Source of the DNA: Acidithiobacillus sp.
Lineage (GTDB): Bacteria; Pseudomonadota; Gammaproteobacteria; Acidithiobacillales; Acidithiobacillaceae
NCBI GenBank assembly: GCA_028697715.1
Contig: JAQVDS010000012.1
Location: 1-64,000, forward strand
Length of the DNA stretch: 64,000 bases
Direction: 5' to 3'
Shown: one piece after another, positions 16,761 through 60,188 of the stretch
How the letters are laid out: each line of letters opens with the position of its first letter
Numbering within the stretch: position 1 is the first letter of the stretch
Notes under the pieces: generated by a model
Told to the model about the DNA's origin: nothing
The model's database searches: none
What the model saw: the letters and a program-made list of their open reading frames with translations, nothing else
Program-made: the position numbers and the translations under genes

Positions 16761-18164
16761 TCAGCGCGGCGTGGGGCAGAACTCCGTTTCCCCATCGTCT
16801 TTGAAGTCTTCTGTCCGCAACTGATGTTTGCGCATTAATTTGTACAGGTCCGTGCGATGCCGCCCGGCAATACGGGCGGCGCGCGAGATGTTGCCATCCG
16901 TGCTGCGCAGCAGCCGTTGCAGATAGTCGCGCTCGAACTCGGCCTTGGCTTCCTGCAATTGGGCAAATGCGGGGGTACTCGTCCCCCGGCCCGAGTTGGG
17001 TATGGCGCTGGCCGGAATCCAGTTCTCGTTGCTCAAGGCGACGGCTTGGGTCACGACGTTTTCCAGTTCACGCACATTGCCCGGCCAGGCCCGTTGCAGA
17101 AGTTTATCGACCGCTTCGGAAGCAAAACCCTGAATTTCCCGGTGTAGACGAGAGGCTTCGCGGTCGAGAAAGTGCTGCGCCAGCAGCAGGATATCCTCGG
17201 GGCGCTCGGCAAGGCTCGGAACCCGCAGGGGAATCACATGCAGTCGATAATAGAGGTCCTCACGAAAGCGACCAGCACTCAGAAGTGCGTGAATATCCTG
17301 GTGCGTGGCACTGATGACGCGGATATCTACCGGGAACTCCTCGCCTCCACCGACGGGCCGCACCCGACCCTCCTGCAATACCCGCAGCAGCTTGACCTGC
17401 AAAGGAAGAGGAAGATCGGCCACCTCATCGAGGAAGAGGGTGCCGCCATGCGCGCTGCGAATCAGTCCGGGGTGGTCGGCTGTGGCCCCGGTAAAGGATC
17501 CCTTTACATGGCCAAATAGCTCGCTCTCGGCGACATCGGCCGGAATGGCACCGCAGTTGATCGCCAAAAATGGCCCAGTACGCCGCGGGCTAGCGCTATG
17601 GATCGCGCGGGCAACCCGTTCCTTGCCGGCGCCGCTTTCGCCCGACAAAAACACGCTCGCCTGGGTGCCGGCGACCTGGGTTACATCGTCCATCAGCTCC
17701 TGCATGGCCCGGCTGCGGTACAGCAGGGACTGGTTGGCCTGCTGGCGGATGGCGGCACGCAAACGACGACTTTCCTGTTTGTCTTGCCATTGCTCCAGGG
17801 CCGCCTGCATCTGTTCTTGCAATTCTTCGTAGCGAAACGGTTTGGCTAGATAGGCAAAGGCATTGCCGCGCATGGCAGCGACGGCATTGGGAATGCTGCC
17901 ATGGGCGGTGAGAAGGAGGACGGGCAGATCCGGCTCGCATTCCTGCACCCACTCGAGGAGTTCCATGCCGTCGATTTCCGGCATGCGCAGGTCGCTGATC
18001 AATAAATCCGGCAGCCTTTTATCCAGTTGCTTCTGCAGATCCGCTGGATGGTCAAAAGTGACGACCTGATGCCCCTCACTTTCCAGCCACAAACCCAAAA
18101 CCCGCAGGAAATCGGGATCGTCATCGACTACGTAAATGGTTGCTGGTTCGGGCTCATTCCTCAT
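16761..18164 (-). CDS. glrR: Sigma-54-dependent response regulator GlrR/QseF-like
   Basis: 467 residues from the ATG at 18164; it overlaps the qseG-like stop as ATGA. Receiver domain 1-120 with acidic Asp14-16, phosphoacceptor Asp58 and Lys108. AAA+ domain with Walker A 'GESGAGKE' at 175-182, Walker B 'LFLDE' at 243-247, and a sigma-54-contacting loop 'GSFTGA' at 222-227, a Ser variant of GAFTGA. A Fis-type HTH ends the protein ('ISRAARIAGRHRTDLYKLM'). It activates RpoN promoters when phosphorylated by the upstream kinase. A near-consensus sigma-54 promoter is present at the far end of this operon. Confidence 0.92.
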   Translation of the reverse strand: MRNEPEPATIYVVDDDPDFLRVLGLWLESEGHQVVTFDHPADLQKQLDKRLPDLLISDLRMPEIDGMELLEWVQECEPDLPVLLLTAHGSIPNAVAAMRGNAFAYLAKPFRYEELQEQMQAALEQWQDKQESRRLRAAIRQQANQSLLYRSRAMQELMDDVTQVAGTQASVFLSGESGAGKERVARAIHSASPRRTGPFLAINCGAIPADVAESELFGHVKGSFTGATADHPGLIRSAHGGTLFLDEVADLPLPLQVKLLRVLQEGRVRPVGGGEEFPVDIRVISATHQDIHALLSAGRFREDLYYRLHVIPLRVPSLAERPEDILLLAQHFLDREASRLHREIQGFASEAVDKLLQRAWPGNVRELENVVTQAVALSNENWIPASAIPNSGRGTSTPAFAQLQEAKAEFERDYLQRLLRSTDGNISRAARIAGRHRTDLYKLMRKHQLRTEDFKDDGETEFCPTPR

Positions 18165-18667
18165 TTTGCTCTTTTCTCCAGACTCTTCTGGGCCTCTGCC
18201 TGTAACAATGAATTGAGTTGCGCGAGTTTGGCCTTTTGCTCGGCGTTTTCGGCGCTCAGTCGCGCAATTTGGACGTTTAGCGCAGAGCTGTTCTCGGCCG
18301 CGCATTTGCCCGAGCTTTCCGGGCGCGCGGCAAGCTGCAACCAAGAGGCAGTCAATCTACGCCAACCGTCGACTTGTTGTTCCAACTCCGGATTTTGTGC
18401 GGCCATATGCAGCTCCGAATGGGCCGCCGCTACGCTCGTGCGGCTGAGTGGTTGCTGGCGCAGGTAATGCTGCGCCAACGCTAGGTGAATCTGGGCACAA
18501 GCGAGGGAATCGGCGGCACCACAATGAGCGAGTGCGCTGAGGAGACCGCGTTCGCTGTTGCTCGTCAGGGGAGGGCTCGGAAAGGTCGGTGGCGGCAGGC
18601 GCTGGGCGCAAGCGCTCAACAGGAGAGACAGACCCAGAGACAACAGGAGCAGTCGGGACTTAGGCAT
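18161..18667 (-). CDS. QseG/YfhG-like lipoprotein
   Basis: 168 residues. Lipoprotein signal with the lipobox 'LLSAC' (Cys20), then Pro-rich linker and helical, Gln/Ala-rich sequence ending in a coiled coil. It sits between the kinase and regulator genes exactly where QseG lies in enterobacteria; there QseG is an outer-membrane lipoprotein that stimulates the kinase. The ATG at 18667 with GGAG six nt upstream is chosen; it overlaps the kinase stop by 8 nt, and its own stop overlaps glrR as ATGA. Sequence identity to QseG is not obvious, so the name rests on position and features. Confidence 0.7.
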   Translation of the reverse strand: MPKSRLLLLSLGLSLLLSACAQRLPPPTFPSPPLTSNSERGLLSALAHCGAADSLACAQIHLALAQHYLRQQPLSRTSVAAAHSELHMAAQNPELEQQVDGWRRLTASWLQLAARPESSGKCAAENSSALNVQIARLSAENAEQKAKLAQLNSLLQAEAQKSLEKRAK

Positions 18668-20153
18668 GAGCATCTCCATAAGGTAACCAGAATTCCGCGA
18701 GGAGTCCGGGGCGTGCGTTGCGTAAGGATATCTTGCCACCCTGCGCTTCCACCAGCTCTCGGGTGATGGCCAGCCCCAGACCCGTCCCTTTGCTCAATAC
18801 CCCTTTCTCCTGTACCTGAAAAAATTCCTCGAATACCTTCTCCAGCAATGCTTCGGGGATTCCCTTGCCGTAATCGCGCACGCAAAAGTCTACGCCCTGC
18901 GCGCCTTCCGCAACCGCAATCTCGATGCGGCTCTCTGCTGGGGCATATTTGTGGGCGTTGGTCACCAGATTGCTCAGAATCTGTAGCAGACGCTGTGGGT
19001 CAGCGCGAACCCTTCTGGATGTCTGGACGCTGCATTGTAGCTTTTGCCCCTTTTGTTCGAGCAGGCTACGAAAACGCAGTTCCAGTTCCCGCAGCAACGA
19101 GGCCGGTTCGACAGGCTCCAGATGGTAATCGAGACTGCGGGCGCGCAGGGCATGTAAATCCAGCATTTCCTGAATGGCGAGGAAGAGTTCGTGCACCTGC
19201 CGGTTGATGATCTCGAGAATTTCCCGTTGCCGCGCATCCAGTGCACCAAAACGTTCGCTCAGGAGCAGCTCTGCTCCGGAGCGAGCCGATGCCAGAGGGG
19301 TCTTCAGCTCGTGAGAAATCTGGCTGAGAAAGAGATGGCGCAATTTTTCTTCTTCTGCCAGACGCTCCTGCATCAGGGAAATGCTCTTCGCGACGGCGCG
19401 TAACTCAGGTGGGCCAGCCTCGGCAACCAACGCACTTCTGCCCGCCGCCATGTCTTCCAGGGCGGCGAGAATCCCGTGTAATGGACGGGAGAGGCTGACC
19501 TGTACCCGCCAGCTCACCAAAATGGCCAGCAATGCACTCAGAAGGACCAAAGCCAAAATGAGCCAGGTGGCATGCTGACGAGCTCTGGCCGCCCGATCCG
19601 CTTCCTGCTGAAAAAGTTGTTGCAGGTCGCTACTCAGTTTTTTCAGACGCGCATCGAGCAGTACCTGCGCGGCATGTAGCTGATTGGCATCAGCCTGGCT
19701 GAATGCCTGCAATTGCGTTTGCAAGCCATGTAAATCTGCTGCGATTTGCGGGTATGCTGCCAATTTTGGCAACAGCTCTGCCAGCTGATCTTGCTCCTGT
19801 TGTAGCAGTTGGGCGCTGGTCTCGCGGTAGCCCTGCTGCGGTAAAACTGCTGCCAAGCGTTCGTAGAATTCCGCCTGTTGCTGCAGGGCGCTGATACGCA
19901 ACGCGTCACGCTGTAGCGGAATGGCAACCCGAAGCAGGGTGTCGCTGCTATCCTGGAGGGTCTGCACGGCGCGCAGGGCGAGGGCGCTGATGGCAGTCAC
20001 AGTGATGACGGTAGCCAGGGCAAAGCCCAGTACCCGTCGCAGCAGGGACGCGCGCGGCGGAGCAGACCCTGTGTCGGTGGACGACAAATGAGGTTGAGAC
20101 GGACCGGCAACCCTGGATGCTCGTAACTTCTGCATGTTTGACAGTCTACCCAT
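18660..20153 (-). CDS. glrK: Sensor histidine kinase GlrK/QseE-like
   Basis: About 497 residues from the ATG at 20153 (an ATG at 20135 is also possible). A first membrane helix near 40-60, a helical periplasmic region of about 140 residues, a second helix ('LILALVLLSALLAILVSW'), HAMP, then HisKA with the phospho-His in 'SQISHELKTPLASARS' and a HATPase with 'NLVTNAHKYAP', 'DYGKGIPE' and 'GTGLGLAI'. First gene of the three-gene overlapping operon. In enterobacteria GlrK responds to envelope signals and phosphorylates GlrR. Confidence 0.9.
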   Translation of the reverse strand: MGRLSNMQKLRASRVAGPSQPHLSSTDTGSAPPRASLLRRVLGFALATVITVTAISALALRAVQTLQDSSDTLLRVAIPLQRDALRISALQQQAEFYERLAAVLPQQGYRETSAQLLQQEQDQLAELLPKLAAYPQIAADLHGLQTQLQAFSQADANQLHAAQVLLDARLKKLSSDLQQLFQQEADRAARARQHATWLILALVLLSALLAILVSWRVQVSLSRPLHGILAALEDMAAGRSALVAEAGPPELRAVAKSISLMQERLAEEEKLRHLFLSQISHELKTPLASARSGAELLLSERFGALDARQREILEIINRQVHELFLAIQEMLDLHALRARSLDYHLEPVEPASLLRELELRFRSLLEQKGQKLQCSVQTSRRVRADPQRLLQILSNLVTNAHKYAPAESRIEIAVAEGAQGVDFCVRDYGKGIPEALLEKVFEEFFQVQEKGVLSKGTGLGLAITRELVEAQGGKISLRNARPGLLAEFWLPYGDAHA

Positions 20154-20172
20154 TCGCGGGCTTTCCGCCACT

Positions 20173-20188
20173 GTAGTCTTTTGACTAC
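20173..20188. promoter_or_regulatory. Inverted repeat, candidate activator site for GlrR
   Basis: GTAGTC-TTTT-GACTAC is a perfect 6-bp inverted repeat, 54 bp upstream of the sigma-54 -24 element. The distance suits an RpoN activator site. It differs from the E. coli GlrR pattern TGTC-N10-GACA, so the link to this GlrR is inferred. Confidence 0.45.
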
Positions 20189-20241
20189 GGCAGACGCCGT
20201 CAGCACATCGCCAATCTGTTGATTTTCCCTCTCCATGATAT

Positions 20242-20257
20242 TGGCATGGGCATTGCA
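20242..20257 (+). promoter_or_regulatory. Sigma-54 (RpoN) promoter
   Basis: TGGCATGGGCATTGCA matches TGGCACGrnnnTTGCW at all fixed positions but one (T for C at position 6), with GG and GC exactly 12 bp apart. Transcription should start about 20268, giving a leader of about 30 nt before the ATG at 20300. It lies between glrK (minus) and the unknown gene (plus). Confidence 0.75.
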
Positions 20258-20299
20258 TTAGTATAACTGCATATTCTAATTCGTCTCAGGAGATCTTCT

Positions 20300-20809
20300 A
20301 TGCGCCTTTTCTGTTTGGAGAAAACCGGTTTTGCCAACCGCTACGCCGTCGTTAGCGAAGAAGACCTATTGCTGCTCGACTTTCAGAGCGACACCCTGGA
20401 AGAGGATCTCGACCGGGTCCTGGAATATCTGCCTGAGCCGCGCCGTGTGTGGCTGTTGCAAACGCGGCCGGACGCCGCCCTGAGTGCGGCGCGGGAGCGT
20501 CTGCAGTGCCTGCTGCCCGATGCAGAAAGTTTGGGTCCGGGGTATGACCTTACGGCGCTGACGCCGTGGCGCTTCTCCGGTCATCTGCTCAATATTTTGC
20601 CCATGGGTAATGAGCATTGGGCCTTTGCGCTGGCTGACTGGCTGTTTTTGGGAGCCGTACGCGATGAGCGCGGACGCTGGTGCGGAGATGATCTGGGACG
20701 CAAGATCCTCACGCGACAAGGCGCACTGCGGCGTCGCCTGTGGGCGTTTCCAGCAACGGCAGAGAAGGTGGTTGATCTAGCCGCGCTGCGTGCCTTGCGG
20801 GCTGCCTGA
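20300..20809 (+). CDS. Protein of unknown function behind a sigma-54 promoter
   Basis: 169 residues, soluble, Leu- and Arg-rich, ATG with AGGAG upstream. Not recognised. The stretch 'TPWRFSGHLLNILP' followed by 'ADWLFLGAVRD' faintly recalls the end of a metallo-beta-lactamase fold ('TPGHTPG', 'GDALF'), but the metal-binding His and Asp are missing; treat as a weak idea. Its promoter is of RpoN type and it is divergent from glrK-glrR, so it is the obvious target of that system. The 3' end overlaps the convergent recN gene by 33 bp. Confidence 0.6.
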   Translation: MRLFCLEKTGFANRYAVVSEEDLLLLDFQSDTLEEDLDRVLEYLPEPRRVWLLQTRPDAALSAARERLQCLLPDAESLGPGYDLTALTPWRFSGHLLNILPMGNEHWAFALADWLFLGAVRDERGRWCGDDLGRKILTRQGALRRRLWAFPATAEKVVDLAALRALRAA

Positions 20810-59900: not shown

Positions 59901-60188
59901 TTCCGAGAGCTACTTTTCGACTGGGGTGTCAAGCCAGGACAAGTTGCTTATGTAAGTTATGATCCCGCAGAGAGGTCGGTTTGGCGTTCCCGCTGGAGGC
60001 TGGCACTCCATTTGCATAAAGGTATCACTGTGGAAATCAGATCTCTTCCAGAACACCAGAGAGCTGGTGAATGGCTCCATGTGTACCCAAGATTTTTGAA
60101 GGAAGGGAAGACGCAGGCTGCAGCTGCTTCACCAGGATTCACTTATTTGCTAGTCATGGCTGCAATTTTTCTTGCGGGAAAGATATAG
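56958..60188 (+). CDS. Giant tyrosine recombinase (1076 residues)
   Basis: Starts at an ATG inside the end of the preceding gene. About 570 residues of unrecognised N-terminal sequence, then a full tyrosine-recombinase core: Arg575 in 'RCGLRRMEALRL', His683-x-x-Arg686 in 'HHLRHSFASHLL', His745 in 'LLGHSGPEV' and Tyr755 in 'AQHYVH'. A further 320 residues follow the nucleophile, an unusual C-terminal extension containing 'LGLSAAQLQAMASKAKW'-type helices. Ordinary integrases are 300-450 residues. Catalysis looks intact. Last gene of the island operon; no terminator is obvious. Confidence 0.78.
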   Translation: MARNDDEIVFQETARGLWDELLATPGVRRGSRLFSEQERQAYRAWLVGEIVEAKKGRSQEAAAQAYPGFLESLCGDRSHNVQDEITREALSRLLHDRVLAAFDVEEWSDSRRPMPAKKDLKSRLPDAAKFLQFLSLLIRRGNAEGLWQWCPPSVPMLLAREPTPFTPEGMRGYRYVQIARKTFWIDLQRSTKLEGITAEGRILVSALLYGGLADIGALRELLRSLRRSTTVTYLSRAGISYLELELPLGRSGRRLRRWFPDPLSEILILRYRFSGDASETVTQKNVLEAMDAYLHSLPKWEGKYLRARSLLRWIPQTLRIELPQFLGAYATGTLLAHAVRPDRWLQLHGHRATTTSDLCLAEDAILRETPPTAAVTEVREALQSVPWLINLRKILRETDRRVVIKALADARVVGFSEPLSQMFYEWAEHLFKHGSAYRHRLSLRTIRRYVSRLAALMLQMLEPPSSIETFGDASWRQLYEDLLDSVETEHQRALVARAIREWHQYLVEKKDASPIPDQQLSSLTVDVVPDARILGMNEFEQVKTEIARGAHVERHVQLPTVLTLVAILGFRCGLRRMEALRLRLTDCHLEGVRATLLIRPFAERSLKSRNATRAIPVHALLEPQELQLLREWVQLRRKSGSPPEGYVFVLEEIGHNPISQEMAMSRIHEALRTVTGDPLMHFHHLRHSFASHLLWRLSLAQVPVDATPAVFFEEREAAGQLYQHLFGHSRSSRKLLYALTSLLGHSGPEVSAQHYVHNLDLILFVHLQDRIPKDVHSWCAFAHEIPQSSLYRIWKNNGMGGIVDRIRQAYVQRVKIPEIWMPDPEGKVQKRRRLFVDPLPLEDLWRILRLGLLADATSLGLEESALWDQLSEEYGLSAAQLQAMASKAKWIYALRGNMGLRHHAMKLTGAGGEVSLALPAKMRTKPDLAVYEQLVPFFWKSIEKDPRLVAEVLDKYLVQAWASHPGYFLGKSPDKPEDVMAFRELLFDWGVKPGQVAYVSYDPAERSVWRSRWRLALHLHKGITVEIRSLPEHQRAGEWLHVYPRFLKEGKTQAAAASPGFTYLLVMAAIFLAGKI

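Follow-up and report, generated by a model that had tools for sequence, protein, structure and literature searches.

Judged from its genome sequence, the acid-loving sulfur bacterium Acidithiobacillus sp. possesses a known envelope-sensing regulator in two copies, one of them diverged: two GlrK-lipoprotein-GlrR systems are encoded, and the regulator in the stretch analysed here is the paralogue (GlrR2). Our main reading, to which we give a probability of roughly three in four, is that this second, paralogous three-gene system (GlrKGR2) forms a unit with a linked target, in which GlrR2 would drive the gene for a 169-residue protein via a sigma-54 promoter. The window, by which we mean the whole stretch of 64,000 nt analysed (GCA_028697715.1, contig JAQVDS010000012.1, forward strand), contains the following features at this locus:

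16761-18164, minus strand: glrR2, encoding a receiver domain, a sigma-54 activator domain (GSFTGA) and a Fis-type HTH with the helix RHRTDLYKLM
18161-18667, minus strand: lipoprotein gene in the position of qseG, 168 aa, LSAC lipobox read by eye
18660-20135, minus strand: glrK2, sensor histidine kinase (HAMP, HisKA, HATPase_c), 491 aa, ATG at 20135
20143-20148, minus strand: putative -10 hexamer TAGACT of glrK2, read from the sequence
20172-20189, no strand: candidate GlrR-type upstream activating site TGTAGTCTTTTGACTACG (TGT-N12-ACG), common to the glrK promoter region and including the inverted repeat
20212-20224, minus strand: IHF-like site AATCAACAGATTG (exact WATCARNNNNTTR) between the activating site and the promoter
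20242-20257, plus strand: sigma-54 (-24/-12) promoter TGGCATGGGCATTGCA, 42 bp 5′ of the ATG at 20300, with the transcript start predicted near 20268
20257-20280, no strand: 24-bp imperfect palindrome ATTAGTATAACTGCATATTCTAAT across the predicted start
20300-20809, plus strand: 169-aa target gene, with AGGAG at 20288-20292 immediately 5′ of the ATG

The operon of kinase, lipoprotein-like ORF and regulator is transcribed away from the 169-aa gene, and its domain content (HAMP/HisKA/HATPase kinase, 168-aa lipoprotein-like ORF, receiver/activator/Fis-HTH regulator) agrees with the kinase-lipoprotein-GlrR-type activator operon, divergent from the promoter, that a first-pass annotation had described. 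A glrK2 match at E ≤ 1e-40 was obtained in 24 of the 40 genomes searched, and a scan of genome contigs, performed to widen the search, returned three loci only, all from the family. The order recN, (gene), glrK-lipoprotein-glrR, DUF502 and galU is kept in the family loci compared (L084-L106), as far as the stretches extend. Eight genomes have the target gene between recN and glrK, namely the window's own (G000), five others of the same genus (G001, G002, G003, G006 and G007) and two of the sister genus (G010 and G013); it was not found at this position in G004, G005, G009 and the g2 genomes. The claim that the target encodes a protein was supported by the differences at the three codon positions, which amount to 20/12/41 against G002 and 58/36/103 against G003.

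The element at 20242-20257 is, as far as its sequence and conservation allow us to judge, a real sigma-54 promoter. It carries both the -24 GG and the -12 GC elements, and compared with TGGCACG-N4-TTGCW its sole departure is a C to T exchange at position 6, which corresponds to the annotated score of 15 out of 16, a score that includes the four free positions. Sigma-54 elements usually lie 12 bp from the start, and the predicted start near 20268 is based on this offset. Counting both strands, the 2.46 Mb genome has 24 exact matches to TGGCAYN5TTGCW; a match in the 135-bp gap is therefore unlikely by chance alone (expectation ~0.0013). The window contains two such exact matches, the other one, at 60001, lying inside a 554-aa ORF. 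Upstream of the target gene, NGGCAYN5YTGCW was detected in 8/8 loci compared to 0.01 expected from dinucleotide shuffles, although here and in all conservation counts below the genomes compared are relatives and not independent, so that shuffle-based expectations overstate significance. Among these promoters the five spacer bases drift and both core elements are kept. Absence of rpoN would have spoken against the proposal, and the gene was found (Sigma54_DBD at C3:25724-26200, E 7.9e-71); the claim of a near-perfect sigma-54 promoter thus stood. Between recN and glrK2 of G009, where the target gene is missing, two operator-like sites and the degenerate TGGCATGATCATCGCC remain, which suggests that a promoter-gene pair once present has been lost.

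The perfect 6+4+6 inverted repeat GTAGTCTTTTGACTAC at 20173-20188, which had been noticed as lying at a typical activator distance, is best read as part of a GlrR-type upstream activating site. For E. coli QseF/GlrR, PMC6075780 gives an operator TGTN12ACA, aided by IHF, at a sigma-54 target. The TGT-N12-ACG of the window has this layout with one end base off, and we counted it as an operator of this type. Upstream of glrK2, with G012 left out of the counts as it has no kinase match, TGTAG-N8-CTACR matched exactly at 17 of 24 loci (shuffled 0.00) and at 21 of 24 when one mismatch was allowed (shuffled 0.20), the misses being G004 with two mismatches and G005 and G023 with three each; the looser TGTN12ACR was exact in 21 of 24 loci, with 2.03 expected after shuffling. 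Allowing one mismatch, TGTAG-N8-CTACR was also found in 7 of the 8 target-gene regions (shuffled 0.06), and in the six gene-bearing genomes of the window's genus the spacing between operator and sigma-54 site, start to start, is 70-72 bp. Genome-wide, the dyad is not enriched, with 1 exact occurrence, 2 with one mismatch and 40 with up to two per strand versus 232 for the reversed control; its support comes from conservation and position, not from frequency, and a reading as a regulon motif was rejected on the same ground. A LexA site was rejected as well, since the dyad has a spacing of N12 and not the N8 of LexA sites.

The activating site is kept at glrK2 in many genomes that have no target gene, and therefore belongs to glrK2 too. 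Its centre is located about 35 bp from the TAGACT hexamer, at which CAGTCTA is conserved in the alignment of six genomes, and probably the site also serves autoregulation of the glrK2 operon, a reading based on a -10-like hexamer that is weak and has no -35. An exact match to the IHF consensus, which defines the IHF-like site, is present in four of the eight target-gene regions (G000, G007, G002 and G001). The palindrome across the predicted start, ATYAGAA-N10-TTCTRAT, was detected, allowing one mismatch, in 6 of the 8 promoters of the target gene (shuffled 0.00), is displaced downstream relative to the sigma-54 promoter in G010 and G013, and might represent a second operator. Interpretation of the palindrome as a sigma-70 -10 element was dropped, as there is no conserved -35.

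The first-pass annotation had regarded the operon as the enterobacterial GlrR system with a different output. GlrR/QseF of enterobacteria is an activator of glmY and rpoE. In a search with the GlrR model PRK15115, however, the best match was found on another contig (C31:3778-5118, 626 bits; window regulator 485 bits; both below the NCBIfam cut-off of 763 bits), and E. coli GlrR shares 58% identity with the C31 copy and 47% with the window regulator. A tree with 21 rows separates the two GlrR types and gives the window type a clade of its own (100/99), with E. coli GlrR placed beside the C31 type (93/92, the branch not starred, and a long-branch warning on the root side); a grouping of the window regulator with E. 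coli GlrR ahead of the C31 copy was not observed. The lipoprotein had been named QseG. Blastp gave no alignment with E. coli QseG at E ≤ 10, and no lipoprotein family of Pfam or NCBIfam was hit except for a 10.7-bit match to an LptM signal. Scores, identities, the tree and the QseG mismatch therefore make the window system a GlrR paralogue and did not sustain either designation.

The C31 locus includes a kinase of its own and, at the lipoprotein position, an ORF of 151 aa. When searched for with GlrR1, two GlrR-type genes were present in 22 of 25 family genomes, the window's included, and one in G001, G004 and G012. The recognition helix RHRTDLYKLM is found in all 22 readable GlrR2 loci out of 23 (the remaining one is truncated), RNRTEFYRLL in eight family GlrR1 rows of the tree, and RNRTEFYKLL in E. 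coli GlrR and in GlrR1 of G025, an outgroup of the same order; GlrR2 has GSFTGA, not GAFTGA. In G013 (C1:422210-423580) the glrR2 frame contains one in-frame TGA, due to decay or a sequencing error, and the target gene and its promoter are kept. The available excerpt of a survey of Acidithiobacillia (PMC12194929) lists GlrR/GlrK and GlrR_2/QseE groups and states no operator or target for them. Its GlrR_2/QseE group is likewise a second, class-wide GlrR-type sigma-54 two-component system, and very probably corresponds to one of the two systems described here, that of C31 or that of the window.

The operators appear to follow the two paralogues, and two further promoters of the genome come into play:

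G000:C40:32300-32531 (L066): sigma-54 promoter of opgG (mdoG) with E. coli-like GlrR operators
G000:C58:21311-21595 (L191; family loci L172-L195): ArsR-type gene beside a zwf-like gene, which we take to be zwf, with TGTAG-type or hybrid operators

The genome contains a single exact copy of the canonical operator TGTCGCT-N4-AGCGACA, which precedes the sigma-54 site TGGCACGTCCTTTGCT of the MdoG/OpgG gene by 216 bp. For opgG, 16 family genomes out of 25 were searched, that of the window among them; leaving out G012 (truncated opgG) and the additional opgG copies (second and third) in G008, G011 and G014, both TGGYAYN5YTGCW and YGTCG-N8-CGACR were present in 15/15 upstream regions (shuffled 0.03 each). 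In G025, glrR1 and opgG are near each other: glrR1 is directly followed by TGTCGCCGAATGGCGACA, a second such site, TGGCACGCCCCTTGCT, a small ORF and opgG. The operators of E. coli K-12 glmY, as read here, are TGTCTGTAAATCACGACA, TGTCGCTTTCTGGCGACA and TGTCTCTTTTTAGCGACA. Among the literature entries listed, no obvious link of GlrR/QseF to opgG was apparent.

Upstream of the ArsR-type gene, with G015 left out of the count as only a second paralogue was found there, TGTAG-type or hybrid operators are present in 24/24 loci, and the sigma-54-like site is exact to the relaxed pattern in 21 and has one mismatch in the other three. The form YGTAG-N8-CKACA lies within 240 nt in 22 of the 24 regions and further up in G009 (-261) and G012 (-271); in the g2 and g4 genomes the operator is located 92-96 bp before the sigma-54 sites. 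In G000, G001, G002, G003 and G007 the site begins with TGTAG and a TGTCG site is found further upstream; all of these except G001 have CGACA as the right half of the TGTAG site, giving a hybrid of both operator types. We infer that TGTAG-N8-CTACR, related forms of which precede the family-wide ArsR-type gene, is the operator of the window paralogue, the assignment of regulators to operators being drawn from correlations between helix and operator.

The first-pass annotation had proposed a search for the repeat before other RpoN promoters. The genome contains 255 sigma-54-like places (at most one mismatch), of which 30 loci, comprising the 24 exact ones and 6 others, were inspected, leaving out L059 and L083 at contig ends. 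A close TGTAG-type operator was found at the window locus only, and the TGTCG site of opgG was the only other clean operator. A TGTAG palindrome at C58:33030 was set aside as element-associated, since a nearly identical stretch is repeated in G003 and G013. Another such palindrome, TGTAGCCTTACACCTACA, is located at G000:C35:7026-7043 (L157), just 5′ of a soxY-like ORF and with no sigma-54 site beside it in G000; a similar site is present at G007:C1:2725032.

We propose the following course of events, each step of which is put forward because of the motifs and the E. coli precedent. GlrK2, perhaps tuned by the lipoprotein, would phosphorylate GlrR2, which may have arisen from a GlrR-type ancestor and would recognise TGTAG half-sites. 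Phosphorylated GlrR2 would bind TGTAGTCTTTTGACTACG between the divergent transcripts, and IHF would bend the DNA between the activating site and the promoter. GlrR2 would then drive opening by sigma-54 RNA polymerase at 20242-20257, with transcription of the 169-aa gene from about 20268. From its position some 35 bp ahead of the -10-like hexamer of glrK2, the same site would probably also autoregulate the operon. The C31 protein, as orthologue of E. coli GlrR, would keep the TGTCG half-sites and drive opgG.

Other explanations of the arrangement have to be weighed. The promoter could be genuine and its main activator canonical GlrR1 from C31, or both regulators, which we consider unlikely. In its favour, a single base in each half-site distinguishes the two operators, and there are hybrids: forms such as TGTAGCCGCGGATCGACA, together with a separate TGTCG site, are seen at ArsR-gene promoters within the window's genus, and the target-gene site of G006 is TGTCGATGAATGGCTACG. 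Yet the window site reads TGTAG...CTACG on both sides, all 15 opgG regions are of the TGTCG type, the recognition helices differ and are each conserved, and the site is linked to glrK2. More generally, the search with the GlrR model yielded 11 activator-type places above 220 bits in the genome, and another sigma-54 activator could bind TGTAGTCTTTTGACTACG; GlrR2 was assigned by linkage and operator type. Counting against the main reading are also the end base of the window site (ACG), the more distant glrK2 sites of G004, G005 and G023, the single operator of the intergenic region, the IHF match in half of the eight regions, GSFTGA in GlrR2 and the in-frame TGA in G013.

We give still less credit to the idea that the dyad is the operator of the glrK2 promoter only, the sigma-54 promoter being activated from elsewhere or by a different activator. 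Preservation of the dyad at glrK2 where neither target gene nor sigma-54 promoter is found between recN and glrK would fit this explanation, but the 70-72 bp spacing to the sigma-54 site within the genus and the same operator type at a defined distance from the ArsR-gene sigma-54 sites (g2, g4) argue against it. It seems very improbable that an ordinary promoter serves the gene and that both the -24/-12 match and the dyad arose by chance or are relics: exact sigma-54 motifs do occur inside coding sequence of the genome and G009 retains its degenerate element with no gene there, but conservation in all eight loci against drifting spacer bases, and the presence of rpoN, speak against such an origin.

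The system resembles E. coli GlrK-QseG-GlrR (QseE-QseG-QseF) with glmY in the order kinase-lipoprotein-activator, in the TGT-N12-ACR operator, in the IHF-like site and in a sigma-54 promoter adjoining the kinase gene. It differs in that the regulator is the paralogue with TGTAG instead of TGTCG half-sites, the lipoprotein is not recognisably QseG, one operator is present in the intergenic region versus three at glmY, and the target is a divergent protein gene. In line with the annotated proposal of a protein gene as linked target, Rfam glmY/glmZ had no match in the 10 sources scanned (window and seven family loci at gathering; C31 and rpoN loci at E ≤ 1).

The duplicate GlrR pair with its separable operators would be an example, provided by nature, of a sigma-54 activator diverging in specificity, with opgG, the ArsR-type gene and the 169-aa gene as predicted targets of the two systems, for which the accessible portion of the class-wide survey (PMC12194929) assigns none. 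It also suggests protein targets, rather than GlmY, as an output of GlrR-type systems outside enterobacteria. A wider scheme, which we offer tentatively and hold at somewhat less than even odds, is that Acidithiobacillaceae possess two insulated systems with operators one base apart per half-site (TGTCG versus TGTAG). GlrR1 would control periplasmic glucan synthesis (opgG), and GlrR2 a metal-less ETHE1-like pseudoenzyme in addition to itself; both would meet at the ArsR-type sigma-54 promoter via hybrid sites, and the envelope state would be wired to metabolism by proteins and not by the sRNA GlmY.

The 169-aa product had no Pfam or NCBIfam family at E ≤ 1 and no match in family models or in sequences of solved structures. 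Apart from weak beta-lactamase matches of two homologues (E 0.11 and 0.14), its assignment comes from the predicted fold. The AlphaFold2 model, built from eight sequences (pLDDT 81, pTM 0.78; residues 151-160 and 162-169 below 50), shows an alpha-beta/beta-alpha sandwich, which Foldseek matched to E. coli glyoxalase II (6rz0) at E 8.6e-8 and which reached a best Z of 14.7, rmsd 2.8 over 155 residues, to Myxococcus ETHE1 (4ysb). Metallo-beta-lactamase-fold enzymes bind metal through HxHxDH. This motif is absent from the eight aligned proteins, the window protein having TRPDAAL. The product is thus predicted to adopt a small metallo-beta-lactamase fold, nearest to ETHE1 persulfide dioxygenase and glyoxalase II, from which it differs in having no HxHxDH metal ligands, only 169 residues and no family HMM match. 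A pseudoenzyme with a binding or regulatory role appears more likely than a metallohydrolase; our best guess would be binding of a thiol, a persulfide or a protein partner, as a shared fold by itself shows no function. In G013 a second homologue (L107 4065-4649) is located beside ntrB/ntrC-like, glnA-like and glnK-amtB-like genes (names by eye). An exact sigma-54 motif at G000:C11:6870-6885 (L057) precedes the gene for a 237-aa metallo-beta-lactamase-like protein, which has HWNVSH in place of HxHxDH and is divergent from a sigma-54 activator (C11:7425-8135).
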